A stretch of 43,873 nt of DNA. Origin: a virus. The stretch spans positions 1 to 43,873 of IMG/VR virus record IMGVR_UViG_3300048088_000520. One strand, written 5' to 3'. Numbering within the stretch: the first letter of the stretch is position 1; every line of letters begins with the position of its first letter. Positions 9,150-43,873 of this stretch are shown one piece after another. Both the position numbers and the translations under genes were made by a program. A model generated the notes under the pieces. The model was not told the origin of the DNA and searched no databases. It was given only the letters and a program-made list of their open reading frames with translations.

Positions 9150-11098
9150 GCGGTCTCACGCATCCATGACGGGCGCGGCAGCAGGCGCAGCTTGGGCTCT
9201 CGGGCGTAGATCTGGCGCATGTTGGCCTCGCCGAACCATTGGGACATGACCAGGTCGTCCGTTCTGAACTGGGGGTAGCGGGTGACCTCTTCGACCAGGC
9301 GCATCGAAGAGAGACGGGCCGCGTCGCCCTTTCCGGGCAAGCGTACAAGGCCGCGCCGGTAGAGCTCGGACAGGATCTGGGGTCCGAGGTTGGGGTCGAG
9401 CTTGTTGGCGGCGTGGGTCTCGTGGCCGATGATGCGCACGCCGCTCTGCTGTTGCCAGCGCTTGATGGCGTCGGTGGCCAGGAAGAAGCGCTGCGCCGCG
9501 TTCTGCTCGAAGATGAGCGTCGAGATCGGGAAGCCCGCGATGACGCTGCGCTCGTACCACTCGGCGAGAATGCCGGTGAAGGTGCCGCGCGGGTCGTTCC
9601 AGTCGAAGAACTGGCGGATCTGCAGCTTGCCGTTGTGCAAGGCGACGAGGAAGCGCAGGTTGGTCTTGGGGTGGTACACCCACAGTGTGATGCCCCACGA
9701 CTTGGTCGGCGAGGGGTCGACGCACATGTAGGAGACGAAGGGCTGGGAGAGCTGTGGGATCTCCCACACCTCGCGCTCGTCGTCCCAACAGCCCGGGAAC
9801 ATCTCCTTGGTCTTGGGATCGGTGCCGCCCTTGATCCAGCGGATGTCGACCAGGGCGGAGGCGGGGTCGATGTCCTCCTGCTGGTACACCTGCATGAAGT
9901 TGCCCGGGTTGTTCTCCTGCTCGGACTCGAGCTCGAGCCAGGACAGGCGGTGCGGGTCGAGCAGGCAGCCGTCGGGGTAGTACGGGTCGCTCGGATCGTG
10001 CTTCTCCGCGCAGCGGTCCTCGTAGTGCGCCTTGTAGACGATGTGGTGGTACTTGCGCCCCGGCAACGCCGAGCAGCAGTCGTCGTGCTCCTGCTCGGTC
10101 GAGCTCCCTACTCTTTTATCCAGATTATGTCGATAGAGATCCTCTGGACTGAGTCTCTGACCTGGAAGAAGGAGTAGTCCTCCCGGTTCCAGACGTTTCT
10201 CAGCCACCTTGTCCCATCTGTCTCTTTGCTTGTCGATCCGCTCGACTGTCTGGAGGAACTTGTCCTCGGTGGCGTCGTCCCAGACGCAGAAGTCGAATCG
10301 TCCTCCGATGAAGCTGGTGTCGAGTCCGTAGGCACTCCAGGTCGGCTCCTTCTCGGTGATGGGCCTGTCGTCGAGCTGGCTGACGATGAAGGCCTGGGCG
10401 GTCCAGAGCACGCTGCCCTCGGGCTTGAAGACGCCGTACTCGGCGAGCAGCGTGGTCTCGGCGTCGAAGGCCAGGCCGTGCTCCATCTCCTCGGACTCGG
10501 CCTTCATGGGGTAGGGCGATTCGAGGGCGTTGCGCAGGCGCAGCAGGTAGCGCTCGGCCAGGGTCTGGCTCGCCGAGCCCATCAGGCCACGGATGCCGCG
10601 GTTGCGACAGGTCAGCCAGGCCGGGATGTCGAGGGTGAACAGGGTGCTCTTGCCCGAGCCCGGCGGGCAGTTGATGACGACGTACTCCTTGGTGCGCGAT
10701 TCGAGGAAGTTCTTGACCCGCTCGGCCGCCTCCTCCTGCCAGGGGGTGGACCGACGGCCGAAGTAGCGGCGGCGGAAGAAGGCGAAGTCGTCGAGGGCCT
10801 TGGCCGCCTCGGGGCAGAGGCGCTCGCGCGGGATCGCCCCGCGCTTGGACTCGTTCGAGATGCCCGGGCCGTACGCCCGGCTGTGCGGATCGGCCGGCGA
10901 AGACTTGCGGTCGGCTTTCTCGCGGAAGCTGACCAGGTCGGCCGGTGAGTAGTTGCCCTGCTCCTCGCGGATACGCGACTCGCGGCGCCAGGCGGTGGGG
11001 ACCGAGATGCCACAGCGGCGGCAGGACTCGGCCTGGGTGTAGCCCTGCGCCCTCAGCGTGTCGTACTTGGCCCAGATCCGTGGCGAGATGCTGGCCAC
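9146..11098 (-). CDS. terL: Terminase large subunit with N-terminal helix-turn-helix
   Basis: It encodes 650 aa from GTG 11098, one base after the upstream TGA, with GGAAG as ribosome-binding site. Residues 1-45 form a helix-turn-helix (LRAQGYTQAESCRRCGIS) of the type seen in small terminase subunits, suggesting a fused DNA-recognition domain; no separate small subunit is recognised. The ATPase has Walker A PPGSGKS at about residues 145-151 and Walker B FDFCVWDDATED near 267-278. The C-terminal RNase H-like nuclease begins near CVDPSPTKSWG with its first catalytic Asp. It cuts concatemeric DNA and powers packaging through the portal. About 230 bases inside it (10095-10330) look less GC-rich than the rest, a possible recombination patch. 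Confidence 0.92.
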   Translation of the reverse strand: MASISPRIWAKYDTLRAQGYTQAESCRRCGISVPTAWRRESRIREEQGNYSPADLVSFREKADRKSSPADPHSRAYGPGISNESKRGAIPRERLCPEAAKALDDFAFFRRRYFGRRSTPWQEEAAERVKNFLESRTKEYVVINCPPGSGKSTLFTLDIPAWLTCRNRGIRGLMGSASQTLAERYLLRLRNALESPYPMKAESEEMEHGLAFDAETTLLAEYGVFKPEGSVLWTAQAFIVSQLDDRPITEKEPTWSAYGLDTSFIGGRFDFCVWDDATEDKFLQTVERIDKQRDRWDKVAEKRLEPGGLLLLPGQRLSPEDLYRHNLDKRVGSSTEQEHDDCCSALPGRKYHHIVYKAHYEDRCAEKHDPSDPYYPDGCLLDPHRLSWLELESEQENNPGNFMQVYQQEDIDPASALVDIRWIKGGTDPKTKEMFPGCWDDEREVWEIPQLSQPFVSYMCVDPSPTKSWGITLWVYHPKTNLRFLVALHNGKLQIRQFFDWNDPRGTFTGILAEWYERSVIAGFPISTLIFEQNAAQRFFLATDAIKRWQQQSGVRIIGHETHAANKLDPNLGPQILSELYRRGLVRLPGKGDAARLSSMRLVEEVTRYPQFRTDDLVMSQWFGEANMRQIYAREPKLRLLPRPSWMRETA

Positions 11099-13865: not shown

Positions 13866-13909
13866 GTGGTTGTCGGCATGAGCCGGCGAAGAGACAGGGG
13901 AGATGCGAA

Positions 13910-14089: not shown

Positions 14090-14208
14090 TGGGAGGTCAC
14101 GCTGGCGACGGATTGCACTACCACGGGATCGGAGAAGCCCGTTACGGCCACAGACACCCATTCCTGCACATCAACCACAAACACCTTGAAAGAGACAGGG
14201 GAGTACAA

Positions 14209-15730: not shown

Positions 15731-16073
15731 CGAGTAACGCTTTCGTCGGACGGTCGGTTATCCACCAATGCTCAGGGTCGCCGTAACACTCCAAATCGGC
15801 CACGGCATCGACGGGCGCATTGAACCGTTCGACCGAACCCAGCCACCTGTGGCACTTCTCGGGCTCAAGCACGATGTACCGGTACTTCATCCGGTCGCAG
15901 GTCGTGTAGTTCATGCCCAACCCGGTCGTCTCTCGGTCAGGCAGCGCCTCGCTAGTGAGCCAGATGACACGGCAGCCGAGGAACGGGTGAGTCACGGGGG
16001 ATTCGAGCATCCCGCACGCACCCAGCGCATCGTGTCCGTGGTCGCAGGTGAAGTGGTAGAGCGGCGTGGTCAC
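15723..16073 (-). CDS. Conserved-looking phage protein with YHFTC/CDR motifs
   Basis: It encodes 116 aa. The pattern YHFTCDHGHDALGACGML, then VIWLT, then TTCDRMKYRYIVL and WWITDRP resembles a family of small phage proteins of unknown role. The opening His followed by a Gly-Leu-Pro-type turn is faintly like the RNA 2'-phosphotransferase/ADP-ribosyltransferase fold, but I cannot confirm a catalytic triad. The overlaps place it firmly in the early operon. Confidence 0.55.
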   Translation of the reverse strand: MTTPLYHFTCDHGHDALGACGMLESPVTHPFLGCRVIWLTSEALPDRETTGLGMNYTTCDRMKYRYIVLEPEKCHRWLGSVERFNAPVDAVADLECYGDPEHWWITDRPTKALLDD

Positions 16074-16324
16074 TCTTCCCCCTCAGAAGTCGCATGGATC
16101 AGGGGACGACCTTCGGCGTCGTAGCCACATGGTCCTGATTCGCCGCAGTCCACGCAGGGAGCCAGGATGTCCAACTCGTCGTAGCCCACGGGCTCCATGT
16201 CGTCAGTGTCAGGCTCGCCACCCTCGCCCAGCAGATTCTTGGCGACGTGATCCCAGAACTCGCCGTCGTCCATCGCATCGCCTTCGTCTACTGGGTCGCT
16301 GCGTTCGTTGGCGCTCACGGGCAC
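16070..16324 (-). CDS. Acidic Cys-containing protein initiated at repeat copy 1
   Basis: It encodes 84 aa, beginning MPVSANERSD. The GTG start at 16324 is inside the 23-nt repeat, 6 nt after AAGGA, and a stop codon lies in frame upstream, so initiation must be here. The sequence is very acidic (DEGDAMDDGEFWDH) and has CVDCGESGPCG near residue 60, a possible zinc site. An acidic protein of this size could mimic DNA, but no evidence goes beyond charge. Confidence 0.52.
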   Translation of the reverse strand: MPVSANERSDPVDEGDAMDDGEFWDHVAKNLLGEGGEPDTDDMEPVGYDELDILAPCVDCGESGPCGYDAEGRPLIHATSEGEE

Positions 16325-16335
16325 GCCCCGTCCTT
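16313..16335 (-). repeat. Start-associated repeat, copy 1
   Basis: Minus strand core AAGGACGGGGCGTGCCCGTG followed by AGC. It contains an SD (AAGGA), a 5-bp hairpin (ACGGG, GCGTG, CCCGT) and the GTG start of the 84-aa gene. Confidence 0.7.
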
Positions 16336-16370
16336 GTGCGGGGCTGAGGATTTACTTGAAGTGGAGTAAG

Positions 16371-16925
16371 TCACGCGGCGCACCCTTCGTGGTGCAGGTT
16401 CTCGCCGGTGATGCGCTCCCCGATCTCGAACGGCAGACCGCAGCTCGGGCAGTCATGGCCCACGCACCGGTCGCCTTCGATCAGTTCGACCGTCATCGTC
16501 TTGGCGGTGACCGCGACGTAGCGCTCCCGCTGGTACGCCTTCGTGCATTCGATGCACCACGACTTCAGCGCCCCGGTGGCCGGGTTCTTCACCCCGAACG
16601 CGCCCAGGGGCAGCCAGGCTCCTTCGCCCTCGTCGTGCTTCGGGCAATGACGCTGACCAGCGCGCTCCTTCAGGGCGTGTCTGCCTTCGTTGGAGCGCCG
16701 CAGGTTGAGCATCGACCCCGCTGGACGCGAGCAGGCCACGGGGGGGGGAAGCTCGCCCTCTAGGCCGCTCAGGTCCCTGCGGATGCGCAGCAGCTCGTCC
16801 ATGACCTCACGGACCTTGGCGCGGGCCACCTGGGGCGTCTGAGCCTCGACGAGGCGCATCTGGCTGATGAGATGGTCGAAGCGGATTTGCAGGGCAATGG
16901 CATGGGCTTCGGCGACGGTGGTCAT
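16371..16925 (-). CDS. Zinc-finger protein with helical N-terminus
   Basis: It encodes 184 aa. ATG 16925 overlaps the stop of the leader or 46-aa frame (TGATG). Residues 1-60 form a long helix (LISQMRLVEAQTPQVARAKV, then REVMDELLRIRRDLSGLEGE). Residues about 93-130 have CPKHDEGEG and a CIECTKAYQRERY knuckle like HNH-associated zinc binding (unusual for lack of the HNH core). The C-terminus has CPSCGLPFEIGERITGENLH. It is probably a nucleic-acid-binding protein. Confidence 0.52.
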   Translation of the reverse strand: MTTVAEAHAIALQIRFDHLISQMRLVEAQTPQVARAKVREVMDELLRIRRDLSGLEGELPPPVACSRPAGSMLNLRRSNEGRHALKERAGQRHCPKHDEGEGAWLPLGAFGVKNPATGALKSWCIECTKAYQRERYVAVTAKTMTVELIEGDRCVGHDCPSCGLPFEIGERITGENLHHEGCAA

Positions 16926-17065
16926 CAGCACTCGACCCCCCGTAGGTCGTTTACTTCAGGAGATTTACCTGTGCTCACGGGCACGCCCCGTCCCTCTGTG
17001 GTGCTGCCGTGGACGGTGCAGGGGTGCCAGCAGCGGCAGTAGTAGCAGTAGATGATTGGACCCAT
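16925..17065 (-). CDS. 46-aa Cys-rich peptide spanning repeat copy 2 (or 19-aa leader)
   Basis: An ATG immediately follows the previous TAA, giving a 46-aa frame. It begins MGPIIYCYYCRCWHPCTVHG, five cysteines in its first 20 residues, and ends in TGATG with the next gene. The repeat is read in frame as EGRGVPVS. Alternatively translation starts at GTG 16984 inside the repeat and makes a 19-aa leader (MPVSTGKSPEVNDLRGVEC). Both end at the same stop and would be coupled to the 184-aa gene. Confidence 0.42.
   Translation of the reverse strand: MGPIIYCYYCRCWHPCTVHGSTTEGRGVPVSTGKSPEVNDLRGVEC
16973..16995 (-). repeat. Start-associated repeat, copy 2
   Basis: Same 23-nt element with one change in the SD part (AGGGA for AAGGA). 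It retains the ACGGG/CCCGT hairpin and GTGCCCGTGAGC. Confidence 0.7.
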
Positions 17066-17512
17066 TTACTCGTCCCCTGACATCAGAGCCGGAAGCCCGG
17101 CTTCGTGGGCGACGTAGAGGTCGTACATGGTGCGTCCGTCCTCGGACCGCATGTAGGGCAACATCACCTGCTCGAACGTGACCATCTCGGTCCTGACGAT
17201 GGCGAGCTGGGCTTCGAGCCAATCTTTAGCGATGCGCCACGCGATCCGCTCGGCCTGCTCGGGTGTCGCGTACTTGGTGTTGCAGACCTTTGGGTCGCGC
17301 TTCATAACCGCCAGCACCCTGTCGGCGTTCACGGGCAACTTGAACCCACGAGAGCCGCCGGATACCTCGATGGCGAACGAGACCCCCGTAGGCGTGCCCA
17401 CAGCGTCATAGCCGGTCATGATCTGGCGAGCGCCACCCTCAACCAGCAGTGCGTGGACGGCACCGATGGTGCGGCTTACCGCCACGGTCGTCGTGTAGTT
17501 GAGAAGGGGCAT
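17066..17512 (-). CDS. Conserved phage hypothetical protein (early)
   Basis: It encodes 148 aa beginning MPLLNYTTTVAVSRTIGAVH and ending MSGDE. The pattern VSRTIG, then FKLPVNADRVLAVM, then TPEQAERIAWRIAKDWLEAQ and TFEQVMLPYM is one I recognise as recurring in phage and prophage early regions without an assigned function. ATG 17512 follows the stop of the 14-aa leader without a gap (TAAATG), so translation is probably coupled. The alpha/beta composition suggests a soluble enzyme-like or DNA-associated protein. Confidence 0.65.
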   Translation of the reverse strand: MPLLNYTTTVAVSRTIGAVHALLVEGGARQIMTGYDAVGTPTGVSFAIEVSGGSRGFKLPVNADRVLAVMKRDPKVCNTKYATPEQAERIAWRIAKDWLEAQLAIVRTEMVTFEQVMLPYMRSEDGRTMYDLYVAHEAGLPALMSGDE

Positions 17513-17557
17513 TTACTCTTCCTCGTTTGCCTGCTGATTATCCGCGCTCACGGGCAC
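17513..17557 (-). CDS. 14-aa leader peptide at repeat copy 3
   Basis: GTG 17557 lies in the repeat, 6 nt after AAGGA. The frame encodes MPVSADNQQANEEE and stops at TAA directly abutting the ATG of the next gene. A stop lies in frame upstream without any other start between. It is probably a translational-coupling leader rather than a functional protein. Confidence 0.4.
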   Translation of the reverse strand: MPVSADNQQANEEE

Positions 17558-17568
17558 GCCCCGTCCTT
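17546..17568 (-). repeat. Start-associated repeat, copy 3
   Basis: Perfect copy of the 23-nt element. It occupies most of the 102-nt space between the 148-aa and 107-aa genes. The remaining bases (17569-17614) hold no clear gene; a 15-codon frame (MLAIDRSDQKDGACP) overlaps the repeat. Confidence 0.7.
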
Positions 17569-17614
17569 CTGGTCGCTGCGGTCGATGGCGAGCATGGGCC
17601 TTACTCGCTGCGGA

Positions 17615-17938
17615 TTACTCTTCACCGGGCACGTCCAGTTCCGGGTGCGCTGGCACCCACGTCCGAGTCTCGAAATCGAAGCGGGCCAGTTCGATCAGCT
17701 TCTGTTCCTCGGGAAGTCCCGCTATCCGCAGCGCCTCCTGGCGCACGTCCCAGTGGTGCTCGCAGACGACGTAGAGCCGTCGCACTTCTTTCCACGCCTC
17801 CTCGGCCCAGTGGCGGACACTGGCCTCGTCTCGGACGGCCCACTCCTTGTCTCGCTCAAGGTCCCGCACCTTGCGCTCCAACGACCGGATGCGCGTCAGT
17901 CGTTCCTCGGGCGTCATGTTCTCGGGGCGCTTAGCCAT
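17615..17938 (-). CDS. Coiled-coil early protein
   Basis: It encodes 107 aa. ATG 17938 lies in an ATGGCTAA overlap with the zinc-ribbon gene. Residues 8-45 are a highly charged coiled coil (PEERLTRIRSLERKVRDLER). The rest is helical with a CEHHW element near residue 59. It may dimerise or act as a partner protein. Unknown function. Confidence 0.52.
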   Translation of the reverse strand: MAKRPENMTPEERLTRIRSLERKVRDLERDKEWAVRDEASVRHWAEEAWKEVRRLYVVCEHHWDVRQEALRIAGLPEEQKLIELARFDFETRTWVPAHPELDVPGEE

Positions 17939-18086
17939 TGGGCCGCTCCAGTTCGCAATACAGCCGGTCAAGTGTTCCCTTCGGCCGGTGGCCGTCGTAG
18001 CCGCAGTCGAGGCACCGATGAACGTGCGGCTTCGGCTGGCACTCGCAATTCTTGGACCCGCAGCTCGGGCACCGAAGCTCACTCAT
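17931..18086 (-). CDS. Double zinc-knuckle mini-protein
   Basis: It encodes 51 aa. ATG 18086 is in an ATGA overlap. CPSCGSKNCEC (residues 6-16) and CLDCGY (about 25-30) give a typical zinc ribbon, with His residues between (HVHR). It ends with a short charged tail (DRLYCELERPNG). Probably nucleic-acid binding. Confidence 0.55.
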   Translation of the reverse strand: MSELRCPSCGSKNCECQPKPHVHRCLDCGYDGHRPKGTLDRLYCELERPNG

Positions 18087-18430
18087 TCGGGAAGAACCTG
18101 TGGGATTGCCTGGTTGTAGTCCTCCAACACCTTCCGGAACGCCTGCACCTGATCGGCCTGCGCCACCCACCCATGCTTGCGGAGGTCATGCTCCAGACGC
18201 CGGAAGTTAGAGTCACTGACGAGCTGCGCCGCCGCCACAACGGGGCCTAGGGCCATCTCGGCACACGCTGGGCATGAGTACCCGCCGTCTTCGTCGTAGT
18301 GGTCAGCGTCGAACGTGAAGGCGCAGTCGGGACAGATGACGCAAACAACATCCCCCTCCCGGTCCCACGTCGAAATCGTGGACGATTGCTCGGTGTTCAC
18401 GGGCACGCCCCGTCCTTCTGCGGCGCTCAC
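18083..18430 (-). CDS. Zinc-ribbon protein starting at or just before repeat copy 4
   Basis: It encodes 115 aa if started at GTG 18430 (GTGA overlap), or 107 aa from GTG 18406 in the repeat with AAGGA 6 nt upstream. The second has the better ribosome-binding site and matches copies 1 and 3. CVICPDCAF and CPACAEM (about residues 30-60) form a zinc ribbon. The C-terminus is a helical charged region (NFRRLEHDLRKHGWVAQADQ). Function unknown. Confidence 0.55.
   Translation of the reverse strand: MSAAEGRGVPVNTEQSSTISTWDREGDVVCVICPDCAFTFDADHYDEDGGYSCPACAEMALGPVVAAAQLVSDSNFRRLEHDLRKHGWVAQADQVQAFRKVLEDYNQAIPQVLPE
18395..18417 (-). repeat. Start-associated repeat, copy 4
   Basis: Same element with one change after the start region (GTGAAC for GTGAGC), giving MPVN rather than MPVS. 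Confidence 0.7.
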
Positions 18431-19835: not shown

Positions 19836-19972
19836 TTGCGGTCCTCCTTGTGCTGCTCGCAGCGGTCGAACTTGTTCCAGCCGTACTGGGGGTAGGCCAA
19901 GAAGCGGTCGACGCAGCCGCAGGGCCACGTGCGCTTGTTGATGTTGTCGGGGTCGACGCGGGGCGCGGTCAT
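19832..19972 (-). CDS. 46-aa CxC protein
   Basis: It encodes 46 aa. ATG 19972 overlaps the stop of the repeat protein (ATGA). CGC, then DRC and EQH give a CxC...C...H pattern suited to a single zinc. The fragment RTWPCGCVDRFLAYPQYGWN resembles short conserved actinophage peptides. Function unknown. Confidence 0.5.
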   Translation of the reverse strand: MTAPRVDPDNINKRTWPCGCVDRFLAYPQYGWNKFDRCEQHKEDRK

Positions 19973-20808
19973 GACGCCGCCAACATCGCGTCGAGAAGAT
20001 CGAAAGCGGACTGCTGCAACGACGCAACCGTGGGCGCGAGCGCAGCCCAGGCGGCATCCCTGGCGGAAGCCCAGGCGGCAGCCCAGGCGGCATCCCAGGC
20101 GGCATCCCTGGCGGCAGTCCAGGCGGCAGCCCAGGCGGCATCCCAGGCGGCAGCCCAGGCGGCATCCCTGGCGGCATCCCAGGCGGCAGCCCAGGCGGCA
20201 GCCCCGGCGGCATCCCTGGCGGCAGCCCTGGCGGCATCCCAGGCGGCATCCCCGGCGGCAGTCCAGGCGGCAGCCCAGGCGGCATCCCAGGCGGCAGCCC
20301 AGGCGGCATCCCTGGCGGCAGCCCAGGCGGCATCCCTGGCGGAAGCCCAGGCGGCAGCCCTGGCGGCGCTCGCATCCGCTCGCGCCTTGTCCAGCGTCGG
20401 CTGGGCCTTCTTCGCCTTCGCGGTTGAGAGGACCGGTGGGAGCGCGCGCAGAGCCGCCGCCTGCTCCGTGCATCCGGCGAGGTCGAGCCACGCGGGTGCT
20501 TGGTGGTGGATCAGCCAGTCGGTGGCGAGCCAGGCCCGCTTCTCTTCGACGGCCTTCGACGCGGCGGAGCCGACCAACTTGGTCACGTAAGGCTTGAGCT
20601 TCTGGCGCCCCTCGTCGTCGAGCGCGTCGTTCCAGTCGCGCATGAACGCGCCGATGACCTTCGACGCGCAGGCCGGATGATCGGACCACGGCTCACCGGC
20701 CACGAAGGCGACCGCCTCCATGACGCACATCTCGCCATCGGGCTCATGCGAGCCTTTCGACAAGAACAGAGCGTCGATAGCCGACAGTCGGTCCTCGATG
20801 ATGGTCAT
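19969..20808 (-). CDS. Ala/Trp tetrapeptide-repeat protein
   Basis: It encodes 279 aa. Residues 1-140 are an ordinary globular-looking helical domain ([20 protein letters not shown]). Residues about 146-255 are 27 consecutive 4-residue units, mostly [17 protein letters not shown] 12-unit block with the same order recurs (units 5-11 against 17-23), a higher-order duplication. The end is a short helix ([18 protein letters not shown]). The repeat predicts a long helix with Trp on a slowly twisting stripe. Role unknown; protein-protein or membrane interaction is possible. Confidence 0.65.
20046..20375. repeat. About 27 tandem 12-bp repeats
   Basis: The unit reads aggcggcatccc on the plus strand with variants (cagcccaggcgg, ctggcggcagcc). 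It keeps all frames open on both strands, so long frames of PGMPPGL or AAQAASL type here are shadows. The coding unit is 4 aa of the repeat protein. Confidence 0.85.
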
Positions 20809-30962: not shown

Positions 30963-31600
30963 CAGGGGTGCCTCACTCTCGCCAGCGTGTCGAGCCAGAG
31001 CCTGCCCCCGGCATGGAAGGGCCAGGTGCCGTCCCACTTGCCGAGCGCGTCGAGGTCAGGGGTGGCGAAGCACGAACCGCACGAGTCGATCTTGGCGTAG
31101 ACCTCGTCGGTCACAGGGTCGGCGGGGAAGTAGGGCTGGTGGGCGTAGAACCGCTGGCCGTTCTGGCGGAAGCCCCAGGTGTCGTAGAAGCGCGGGCCCT
31201 CCTCGGCAAAGACCATCGGAGCCACCGAGCGCCCATTCTTGGCCGCGTCGATGAGGCGCACCATGTCCTCGGTGTCCCAGACGAGATCGGACTCCACCCA
31301 GATCACGATGTCGGGGTCGTCCTCCAGCGCGCGGGCCAGGGTGGGACGGACCACCGAGGCGATCTGCGCCCAGCGCTGTGGGTTGTCCACGCTGCCGAAC
31401 CGCGGGCCGCCGTGGGATACCTCCATGAAGGTGTCGCTGGTCCGCACGCGATGCGCCAGCTCGTCGTCGGTGCCGTCGTGGCTGTCGCCCTCGGTCAGGT
31501 AAAGGCGCAGCCCGACGCGACAGCGCAGCTTGTTCACCTGCTCGAAGTAACGGTCGAGGTAGGACTGGCTGTCCCTGAAGATGGAGCACAGGGCGATCAT
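30962..31600 (-). CDS. GT-A-fold glycosyltransferase (Anp1-like)
   Basis: It encodes 212 aa from ATG 31600 (ATGA overlap). CSIFRDSQSYLDRYFEQV, then LYLTEGDSHDGTDDEL and DPDIVIWVESDLVWDTEDM are the strand-loop pattern of GT-A enzymes; the ESDLVW segment stands in the DxD position. I recognise the set as like Anp1-type transferases that recur in phages. It would transfer an activated sugar to a polysaccharide or virion protein. It is the last gene of a three-gene sugar cassette inside the tail genes. Confidence 0.72.
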   Translation of the reverse strand: MIALCSIFRDSQSYLDRYFEQVNKLRCRVGLRLYLTEGDSHDGTDDELAHRVRTSDTFMEVSHGGPRFGSVDNPQRWAQIASVVRPTLARALEDDPDIVIWVESDLVWDTEDMVRLIDAAKNGRSVAPMVFAEEGPRFYDTWGFRQNGQRFYAHQPYFPADPVTDEVYAKIDSCGSCFATPDLDALGKWDGTWPFHAGGRLWLDTLARVRHP

Positions 31601-32688
31601 GCGGGTACGTACTCCCCGACGAGGGCGGCCACCTGCTCGACGCCCGTGTCCAGGCTCGGGTGCAGACCGACGTAGAGGCCGTGGTCGTGGACGTAGTCGG
31701 CGCCGGGGTAGTGGTCATCGGCCCACTCCGCGAAGGCGGGCTGGCGCATCAGGTTGCCGCCGAGGATGGGGCGTGTCTCGACACCGTGGGCCTCGAGCCA
31801 CTCGGCCAGGCCGTCACGGTCCTCTTGGACGAACATGGGCAGGCCGAACCACGAGGGCGACGTGTGCAGCGGGGCGGTGGGGAACGTCACGTTGGGATGA
31901 CCGGCGAGGTAGGTGACGAAGGTGGCGCGGTTCATGGCGCGGATCTTGTTGAAGATGTGGAGCTTGTCGAGTTGGACGAGCCCGATGGCGGCGGCGATCT
32001 CGCTCGGGCGCAAGTTGAACCCCCGCGTGACGAAGCGATAGGGGTCGCCCCCCTTGTGGCGCTCCCAGCCATGCGACCGCATGGAGCGGAACTGGTCGGC
32101 CAGCTTGGCGTCGGCTGTCGTGATCATTCCTCCCTCCATCGTGGTCATCTGGTGGGAGAAGAAGAAGGACCACGATGCCGCCAGGCCGAAGGACCCCACG
32201 GGGCAGTCGTGGTAGGTCGCACCCAGCGCCTCGCAGCAGTCCTCGACCACGACCAGGTCGCGCTCGGCGGCCAGTTCCATGATCGGGTCCATGTCGCACG
32301 GCACGCCCATGAGGTGGACAACACCGATGCAGTCGACGGCTTTGTTGAGGCGGCGCTCGATCAGCTCGGCCGTGGTGTTGACACCGTCCACGTCGCAGAA
32401 GGCGACTCTCCCATAGACATCTAAGGACCACGCGTGGGTCGGCCACGTCACCGCAGGGACCAGGGCGGTGTGCCCGATCGGTGCGCCCAGGGCGATGAGC
32501 AGGTCGGCCGAGGACCCCGAGTTGACCATGACCGCGTGAGGCGCGCCGACGTAGTCCGCGAAGGCCGCCTCGAACTCTTCGACCTTGTCGCCACACGTCG
32601 TGTGCTTGGAGCGCAGCACCTCGGTGGCCGCGTCGATCTCTTCCTCACCGATGGTGGGAACAGCCAGCGGATACCAGAACTCCTTCAC
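31597..32688 (-). CDS. ColD-like 3-dehydratase of the DegT/DnrJ aminotransferase fold
   Basis: It encodes 363 aa. GTG 32688 overlaps the glycosyltransferase stop (GTGA), and decides the start. The family fold is clear: VNSGSSADLL (residues 56-65, phosphate), VVVEDCCEALGA (Asp150 binds pyridine nitrogen), and the active-site loop SWSFFFSHQMTTMEGGMITT (172-191). The PLP-anchoring Lys of aminotransferases is His179. That replacement marks GDP-4-keto-6-deoxymannose 3-dehydratase (ColD) and the CDP-sugar E1 dehydrase, which make 3-deoxy and 3,6-dideoxy sugars. The product would be used by the neighbouring transferases; the substrate is unknown. Confidence 0.85.
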   Translation of the reverse strand: MKEFWYPLAVPTIGEEEIDAATEVLRSKHTTCGDKVEEFEAAFADYVGAPHAVMVNSGSSADLLIALGAPIGHTALVPAVTWPTHAWSLDVYGRVAFCDVDGVNTTAELIERRLNKAVDCIGVVHLMGVPCDMDPIMELAAERDLVVVEDCCEALGATYHDCPVGSFGLAASWSFFFSHQMTTMEGGMITTADAKLADQFRSMRSHGWERHKGGDPYRFVTRGFNLRPSEIAAAIGLVQLDKLHIFNKIRAMNRATFVTYLAGHPNVTFPTAPLHTSPSWFGLPMFVQEDRDGLAEWLEAHGVETRPILGGNLMRQPAFAEWADDHYPGADYVHDHGLYVGLHPSLDTGVEQVAALVGEYVPA

Positions 32689-34097
32689 GTCCGCTGTGCC
32701 TTGTGCTTTTCCAGCAGCAGGTCGGTATAGCTCTCCCCTGTCCCGAACTTCTGATGACAGGTCGGGCAGAAGGCCTGGCGCTCGTAGAGCTCGGGGATCT
32801 TCTCGACCTGCTCGGGCAGGAGCCCCTCGTCGCCCGCGTCCCACACGGTCACTCCACCCTCGGTGATGAACTCGGGCGTGCCGCTCAGGTGCACGTCGAC
32901 CAGGCCGGCGTCGAAGAGGATGCGCTTGACATCGGCTGGGACCTGGTACTCCTTGCCTTTCTTGAAGACGTAGATGTTGCCGCCGATGTCCGCGGTGTGG
33001 TCGCGCACGAGCACCAGCTTGAACAGCTTGCCCACCGGCTCGTACCACTCCCCGGTCTCAGTGAGCGGCGTCAACCGTTCGCGCCCGATGGCGTCGAGGA
33101 CGCCGTTGGCACAGCGCTCCCAGGTGAACTCGGCCGCCTGCGGCGCGTTGCGCTTGGCCCGCTCGACCGCCTCGGCGTAGTTGTAGTACGTCCAGAGCAT
33201 GTACTCACAGAGCTGGTCGAAGTCAGGCTCCCACCATCCGCCGGCCTCGCCGAAGACGAAGTAGCCCGCCTTGTCGATCGTGGCGTCGAGACCCATGCCG
33301 AGGTGGGCGAAGGACTCGTGGCCGTGGGCGTTGGTGAGGATGGTCGGGCAGCCCTGGGCGATGGCCTGGAGGGGTTGGAGACCGAACCCCTCGCCGCGTG
33401 AGGGGCCGAGGTAGCAGTGGGTCTGGGCGTAGAGGTCGACCTCGGCCGCCGAGGACAGGTAGCCGTTGACGGTCTCGACCCGGTCGCCGAAGTACTCCTC
33501 GTAGCGCGGCGACTTCATGATCAGGTACGGCGCGGGCATGTCCTCGGGCCACGAGCCTTCGGGGAAGCACTTGCGGAACGCCTTGTACGCGAGGTCGGTC
33601 CCCTTGCGCTGGCCCCTTCCCGCGACCATGAAGTTGAACCGGGTCGTCGGCATGGTGCGCGGTACGTAGCGCCACAGGTCGGGGTCGATGCCGAGGGGGA
33701 CGTAGTGGACGTTGTCGTGGTAGCGGCTGAACAACTCCAGGTTCTGCTTGGACGGCACAATGATGGTGTCGCACTCGTGGAGGTTCTCCCTGAACGCGGT
33801 GGGGAGGTGAGTGGTCTCGAACATGGTGAAGAGGACCACCTTCTGGTTCGCCCACCAGCCCCGGGCGTGGGAGGGGACCGAGACCCAGAGCACGATGTTG
33901 GACAGCCCGGCGTAGGGCTTGACCGGCCCGAACTTCTCATACGCCGTCGGGTCGTCGAGCATGTAGGAGTGTGGGGCACGGTCGATCTCGTCGTAGACCA
34001 TGATGTCCTGCTTGGCGATCTCCTCGGCCAGGCGCACACCCAGGCGGCCGTAGCCGATCTGGTCGGAGCGGACCCGAAAGATCGTGAGTTCACTCAC
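32685..34097 (-). CDS. GT4-type glycosyltransferase with extra C-terminal domain
   Basis: It encodes 470 aa from GTG 34097. Residues 1-350 are a GT-B transferase: N-terminal Rossmann part (VRSDQIGYGRLGVRLAEEIA), hinge motif VPLGIDPDLW (133-142), GQRKGTDLAYKAF, and GPSRGEGFGLQPLQAIAQG (231-249). The EX7E motif is EX7Q here (Glu236, Gln244), a notable change. Residues about 355-470 are an added domain (GGNIYVFKKGKEYQVPADVK, then FCPTCHQKFGTGE) resembling a small virion-associated unit with one CxxC. The fusion hints that the enzyme or its product may be tied to the virion. Confidence 0.78.
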   Translation of the reverse strand: MSELTIFRVRSDQIGYGRLGVRLAEEIAKQDIMVYDEIDRAPHSYMLDDPTAYEKFGPVKPYAGLSNIVLWVSVPSHARGWWANQKVVLFTMFETTHLPTAFRENLHECDTIIVPSKQNLELFSRYHDNVHYVPLGIDPDLWRYVPRTMPTTRFNFMVAGRGQRKGTDLAYKAFRKCFPEGSWPEDMPAPYLIMKSPRYEEYFGDRVETVNGYLSSAAEVDLYAQTHCYLGPSRGEGFGLQPLQAIAQGCPTILTNAHGHESFAHLGMGLDATIDKAGYFVFGEAGGWWEPDFDQLCEYMLWTYYNYAEAVERAKRNAPQAAEFTWERCANGVLDAIGRERLTPLTETGEWYEPVGKLFKLVLVRDHTADIGGNIYVFKKGKEYQVPADVKRILFDAGLVDVHLSGTPEFITEGGVTVWDAGDEGLLPEQVEKIPELYERQAFCPTCHQKFGTGESYTDLLLEKHKAQRT

Positions 34098-43739: not shown

Positions 43740-43873
43740 TTCATCACCACCGGGGTACTACGCACGCTGACATTGGCCTGAGGAGTTCCCAGCTTGGCCT
43801 GGATCATCTGGAACACGTTGAGCAGGTTGTTCTTCTGAAAGTCAGGAGAATCCTTGTTCTCGAAGTAGTAGGC
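43736..43873 (-). CDS. 3' end of the virion lysin (duplicate of bases 1-127 plus final 11 nt)
   Basis: This fragment carries the stop codon (TGA, 43736-43738) of the lysin that begins at base 1816. Bases 43747-43873 repeat 1-127, so it is not a second gene. It closes the reading frame as ...STPVVMK. Confidence 0.92.
   Translation of the reverse strand, partial: AYYFENKDSPDFQKNNLLNVFQMIQAKLGTPQANVSVRSTPVVMK
43747..43873. repeat. 127-bp terminal direct repeat (assembly overlap)
   Basis: Bases 43747-43873 equal 1-127 exactly. A length of 127 matches a common assembler k-mer, so it reflects a circular assembly graph rather than biological terminal repeats. Joining the ends restores the lysin gene. 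Confidence 0.93.

Follow-up and report, generated by a model that had tools for sequence, protein, structure and literature searches.

Four copies of a start-codon-containing block in an uncultivated tailed phage: a probable SAS-like translation-initiation element

Introduction

Why should a phage genome carry, among its non-structural genes, four copies of one short block that holds both an SD-like sequence and a GTG codon, and what would such a block do for the genes beside it? The locus that raises this question lies in a window of 43,873 nt (the whole stretch of DNA analysed here), and the first comparison that suggests itself is with the start-associated sequences (SAS) of actinobacterial-type phages. 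The SAS of cluster K mycobacteriophages, GGGATAGGAGCCC, is a 13-bp sequence that lies 3–7 bp upstream of mostly ATG starts, occurs in 11–19 copies and is kept across relatives (Pope et al. 2011, PMC3203893). In Microbacterium phages of cluster EF, an SAS unrelated to the cluster K sequence, GGGAAAGGACCCC, occupies RBS positions in ten unusually conserved copies, and other start-linked or intergenic repeats have been reported for clusters EC, EG, and EI (PMC7302621). The SAS survey was repeated in 2025. The kind of element described below is thus already known; its sequence and its inclusion of the start codon are new.

The phage and its relatives

The window looks like a complete phage genome, its ends joined by a 127-bp direct repeat (1–127 and 43747–43873). 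The source is an uncultivated tailed phage, distantly akin to the Streptomyces phages of the genus Manuelvirus. A terminase gene is present and, used as a query, found no match in IMG/VR. The major head protein belongs to phrog_1357 and is distantly related to that of Manuelvirus-group Streptomyces phages (~36% capsid identity); closer capsid relatives in IMG/VR share 92, 90, and 81% identity, followed by others at 66–62%. DNA alignment with these IMG/VR relatives revealed that the structural genes are common to them, with the non-structural region at 11–24 kb largely replaced, and both the element and the genes surrounding it are absent from the closest capsid relatives.

Two further features of the window may be recorded here. 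An aminotransferase-like protein (phrog_3139) with relatives in Synechococcus phages is encoded among the structural genes at 31597–33048, and a coding region holds a 12-bp tandem repeat array at 19970–20439. The non-structural region of one relative (G004, ~32312–32456) also carries an array of 12-bp period, unlike that of the window in sequence.

Sequence and distribution of the repeat

The four copies (Table 1) share a single orientation and are confined to 16.3–18.4 kb, among non-structural genes and with the recognisable structural genes outside. The sequence AAGGACGGGGCGTGCCCGTG is exact in three of them and has a single mismatch (AGGGA) in the remaining one, and a 19-nt block, GGACGGGGCGTGCCCGTGA, is identical in all four. 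This invariant core spans the spacer between SD and GTG, the GTG itself, and seven bases more. Each copy presents AAGGA or AGGGA, then 6 nt, then an in-frame GTG, and the frame so opened begins with MPVS in three copies and with MPVN in copy 4. The 23-nt blocks, their spacing, and these residues are as the first-pass annotation had described them, one copy reading AGGGA in place of AAGGA. With a 20-nt query and up to three mismatches, shuffled sequence gave a mean of 0.02 matches, none of 100 shuffles reached four, and the genome itself yielded no fifth or degenerate copy. Random occurrences within genes, which would have told against a role at starts, were likewise not found, as no copy lies inside a long gene.

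Conservation ends sharply at the borders of the core. In pairwise comparison the 17-nt flanks are identical at only 3–10 positions upstream and 5–9 downstream, and a few bordering positions still look related (AGC.CC.CAG upstream, RCRC downstream). Neither the six-base spacer nor the third base of CCC would be held constant if an SD and a start codon were all that was needed.

Beyond the window, the element was not recovered. IMG/VR holds no exact match to the core (18–20 nt), and a search for known RNA families and tRNAs found none. A search of bacterial genomes gave one core match, antisense within a long gene of a Bacteroidales MAG (L104), which we judged to be chance. The annotation had proposed that related phages be searched; among 11 capsid relatives the element is absent at up to three mismatches, save for one unconvincing, chance-like three-mismatch site in G005, a test that is weak because the nearest relatives lack the whole region. 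With no relative carrying the element, evolutionary conservation cannot be shown.

Table 1. Copies of the element, adjoining genes, and a second start-associated repeat in the window
Feature	Coordinates	Strand	Description
Copy 1, AAGGACGGGGCGTGCCCGTGAGC	16313..16335	-	20-nt match 16316-16335; GTG 16324-16322 opens 84-aa frame 16070-16324; in-frame stop upstream
Copy 2, AGGGACGGGGCGTGCCCGTGAGC	16973..16995	-	20-nt match 16976-16995; GTG 16984 opens 19-codon frame MPVSTGKSPEVNDLRGVEC; TGA overlaps ATG 16925 of next gene
Copy 3, AAGGACGGGGCGTGCCCGTGAGC	17546..17568	-	20-nt match 17549-17568; GTG 17557 opens 14-codon frame MPVSADNQQANEEE; TAA directly abuts ATG 17512; in-frame stop upstream
Copy 4, AAGGACGGGGCGTGCCCGTGAAC	18395..18417	-	20-nt match 18398-18417; GTG 18406 opens ~107-aa frame down to 18083
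84-aa Cys-containing small protein	16070..16324	-	Candidate start from copy 1; no Pfam match
184-aa Cys/His-rich protein	16371..16925	-	After copy 2 leader; weak HNH/endonuclease VII match, E 0.014-0.023
148-aa protein, phrog_17260	17066..17512	-	After copy 3 leader; homologues at ~40-50% identity in Microbacterium and other phages
~107-aa Cys-rich protein	18083..18406	-	Candidate start from copy 4
Different start-associated repeat, copy a, AAGAGACAGGGGAG	13889..13902	+	Before small ORF, ATG ~13910 (59 aa)
Different start-associated repeat, copy b, AAGAGACAGGGGAG	14190..14203	+	Before small ORF, ATG ~14209 (51 aa)

Reading frames at the four copies

In each copy the GTG is either the first start of the downstream frame or one lying in frame with it, and sizeable genes are opened only by copies 1 and 4, short leader frames by copies 2 and 3. 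At copies 1 and 3 no alternative start lies between the upstream in-frame stop and the GTG, in agreement with the first-pass annotation, and for these two its description of the copies as always at gene junctions is clear. The other two may lie inside longer frames: copy 2 is also in frame within a possible 46-aa Cys-rich ORF (ATG 17064), and copy 4 would lie eight codons into a longer frame if that frame began at GTG 18430, which overlaps the stop of the preceding gene.

The related proposal that each copy supplies the start holds at every copy for a frame, but at copies 2 and 3 that frame is not the main gene. For the gene at 17066–17512, all 14 phage homologues in IMG/VR align from ATG 17512 (the start being ATG in 13 and GTG in one), most of them preceded by an SD-like sequence of their own. 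Since the homologues share this start, copy 3 is not the start of that gene. The 184-aa protein has no relatives in IMG/VR or in phages, and the ~107-aa protein has none in phages. One phage with a homologue of the 17066–17512 gene (L154) carries another repeated RBS block, CAAGGGGGGTAAC, in three copies (5591, 7478, and 8792).

The predicted hairpin

Every copy contains ACGGG/CCCGT as a perfect 5-bp inverted repeat around the loop GCGTG, and the isolated element is predicted to fold as ACGGG-GCGTG-CCCGT at -8.4 kcal/mol. A fold at least as stable is found for about 1% of 18-mers from the window, and a 5-bp stem of some kind for 3.7% of shuffled cores. Once 30 or 45 nt of flank are included, the predicted stem is dominant only in copy 3. 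Roughly half of the predicted ensemble of copy 4 contains it at 45 nt, and other pairings displace it in copies 1 and 2. Identical cores leave no covariation that could back the hairpin. An RNA hairpin enclosing the start codon may form, and the 5-bp hairpin that had been placed over each start stands as an inverted repeat and an isolated fold, although in its flanks it dominates only at copy 3.

Translational operators that hold the start region in a hairpin are known, the MS2 replicase operator among them, as is post-transcriptional control in phage T4. The element resembles operators of the MS2 type in placing the start codon in a small hairpin beside the SD; it differs from them in that its predicted hairpin lacks covariation and is not stable in most contexts.

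Start-region repeats elsewhere in the lineage

Repeats overlapping SD-plus-start positions were sought in a scan that recovered the known SAS copies of mycobacteriophage Anaya as a positive control and found a different start-associated repeat on the plus strand of the window (Table 1). A TTGACA-like sequence lies upstream of its copy a. Among the uncultivated relatives, start-region repeats were found in G003 (ACAATGAAAGGGGAAACG, three copies), G004 (GGGGAGGTAAGTGATGG), G006 (CCTGAAAGGACAAG), and G010 (GACGGGAGAGACGATG); chance matches may be among the two-copy blocks. The same scan found no start-region repeat in G001, G002, and G007, and the feature is thus not universal. In G005 (L098/L099), unrelated genes are preceded on the minus strand (28835, 28429, and ~26776) by an intergenic repeat of ~65 nt, GACGATTCCGCCGGC...CTCAAGACAGGA, that stops just short of their ATG and may combine a promoter or operator with an RBS, in the manner of ESAS plus SAS.

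The Streptomyces phage WRightOn (L158), of the Manuelvirus group, carries CAAGGG(G)AGAGA-type sites nine times in a leftward small-gene region (minus strand, 38.4–43.5 kb). Seven of the nine lie directly before annotated starts, and the other two (42329 and 40979) precede an ATG, which suggests misannotated starts.

One repeat found in the relative G008 was rejected as a start cassette. It proved to be the coding 3' end (RAALEGER stop) shared by a family of small paralogues and joined to the next gene by an ATGA overlap, and so not every start-region repeat is an SAS. Blocks of the RAALEGER type were found in 11 IMG/VR contigs, including phages of 124 kb and 91 kb. The family itself, TITISRE ... 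RAALEGER, occurs in L116–L127, at 36116 and 36361 of G008, and at 9677 of G009, and its last codons and ATGA overlap are near-identical in nucleotides in phages of 40–65% GC.

Comparison with known start-associated sequences

The first-pass annotation had likened the element to the cluster K SAS while noting that the sequences differ, and on both counts we agree. Like the cluster K SAS, it is a short SD-containing repeat in one orientation at the starts of unrelated small non-structural genes, conserved beyond the SD. It differs in including the GTG start and two further codons, and in occurring in four copies in one genome. The cluster K consensus itself, searched at up to two mismatches, has one two-mismatch site in the window (2788, against 1.46 expected), and the element is no match to it. 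In all four copies the SD lies 6 nt before GTG; conservation, however, continues past the start codon, and in two of the four cases that codon begins a leader frame. Nor did the 40 nt upstream of the four copies hold a shared inverted repeat corresponding to the ESAS, a 17-bp imperfect inverted repeat upstream of SAS. Because it departs from the sequence definition of the cluster K SAS and has no ESAS, we do not file the element as a member of that class. What the SAS of clusters K and EF have in common, namely an SD with conservation beyond it and a single orientation among non-structural genes, is nevertheless found here.

The cluster EF SAS is also alike in its RBS position, in containing AAAGGAC, and in its GGG...CCC ends; there, however, the SD lies between GGG and CCC, the start codon falls outside the motif, and a linked ESAS is found upstream. 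In both published consensus sequences the SD is bracketed by terminal GGG and CCC; here GGG and CCC stand around GTG, a resemblance inferred from three sequences. The blocks of WRightOn, G003–G006, and G010 share with the element their repetition at start regions, mostly in a small-gene region, and the same broad capsid lineage; they are unrelated to it in sequence, number 2–9 copies, and have no start-codon hairpin noted.

Alternative explanations

The strongest rival is that a piece of a start region was copied along with gene insertions, direct repeats at the junctions then allowing gain and loss of cassettes by homologous recombination. On this account the SD and start are present because junctions contain them. 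The copies do flank three units, of 849, 573, and 660 nt, in a region wholly replaced in the closest relatives, and there is a precedent in cluster O phages, in which a 17-bp direct repeat flanks a gene gained or lost at a start/stop junction (PMC4351075). The G008 repeat, a coding 3' end overlapping the next ATG, points the same way. Against such copying, the adjoining genes are unrelated, all 19 core positions were kept while the flanks diverged, and GTG is in frame in all four copies. We consider this origin unlikely, though still to be reckoned with.

It is improbable that the block is instead a DNA operator, with ACGGG-n5-CCCGT bound by a phage DNA-binding protein in the manner of stoperators or of the palindromes of clusters O and EG. 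The perfect inverted repeat in every copy would suit such a site, and palindromic repeats near starts have precedent (PMC7302621, PMC4351075). Yet conservation is asymmetric and spans the SD and GTG, the copies all face one way, the rest of the genome yields neither another perfect site nor a clear excess of near sites or half-site palindromes, and a limited consensus scan predicted no sigma-70-like promoter beside any copy.

Least probable is a protein-level repeat, in which the block would encode a conserved peptide: EGRGVPVS if read in the GTG frame, KDGACP-stop if read in the following one. Frame +1 does read AP[QH][KR]DGACP-stop or a close variant in all four copies, with a GTGA overlap with the next frame, and G008 has a C-terminal block of such a kind. 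Copies 2 and 4, however, lack a start codon for frame +1, and at copies 1 and 3 a stop closes frame 0 upstream; degenerate codon positions are invariant, and the peptides appear nowhere else in the loci examined bar a chance DGACP in L104.

Proposed function and significance

Our preferred reading, drawn from sequence comparison, is that the element is probably an SAS-like translation-initiation element whose sequence is new and takes in the start codon. This reading is favoured by the four copies where 0.02 were expected, the invariant core, the published SAS of other sequences, and the start blocks of related phages. On the other side, there are only four copies and none in relatives, copies 2 and 4 fit longer frames, and recent copying could also yield identical cores.

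As an SAS-like element, each copy on the mRNA of the leftward small non-structural genes would offer AAGGA, or once AGGGA, to the anti-SD, with GTG 6 nt further on. At copies 1 and 4 the ribosome would start a small protein at the GTG; at copies 2 and 3 it would start a leader of 14–19 codons that ends at the ATG of the next gene, and since these leaders stop at that ATG, we propose that the next gene is translated by coupling or reinitiation. Conservation past the SD and start, including synonymous positions and the SD–GTG spacer, suggests that the block is probably recognised in its entirety at the nucleic-acid level, whether by the ribosome or by another factor, and such recognition would perhaps give these genes a common level or timing of translation. 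A bolder version, which we regard as improbable, would make the four units a phage regulon under one RNA-binding factor that reads a hairpin whose loop holds the start codon, the elements of clusters K and EF and the present one being independent versions of a GGG/CCC bracket around the initiation signal, here with coupling leader peptides added.

Since SAS were described in 2011 no function has been demonstrated for them; the present case contributes a version whose block takes in the start codon. The comparative picture is one of several phages of a single capsid lineage, each with a start-block sequence of its own, mostly where gene content changes fast. A core that is a copied boundary repeat would show small phage genes arriving with a ready-made start; one that is selected would point to a layer of translation control in actinobacterial-type phages.
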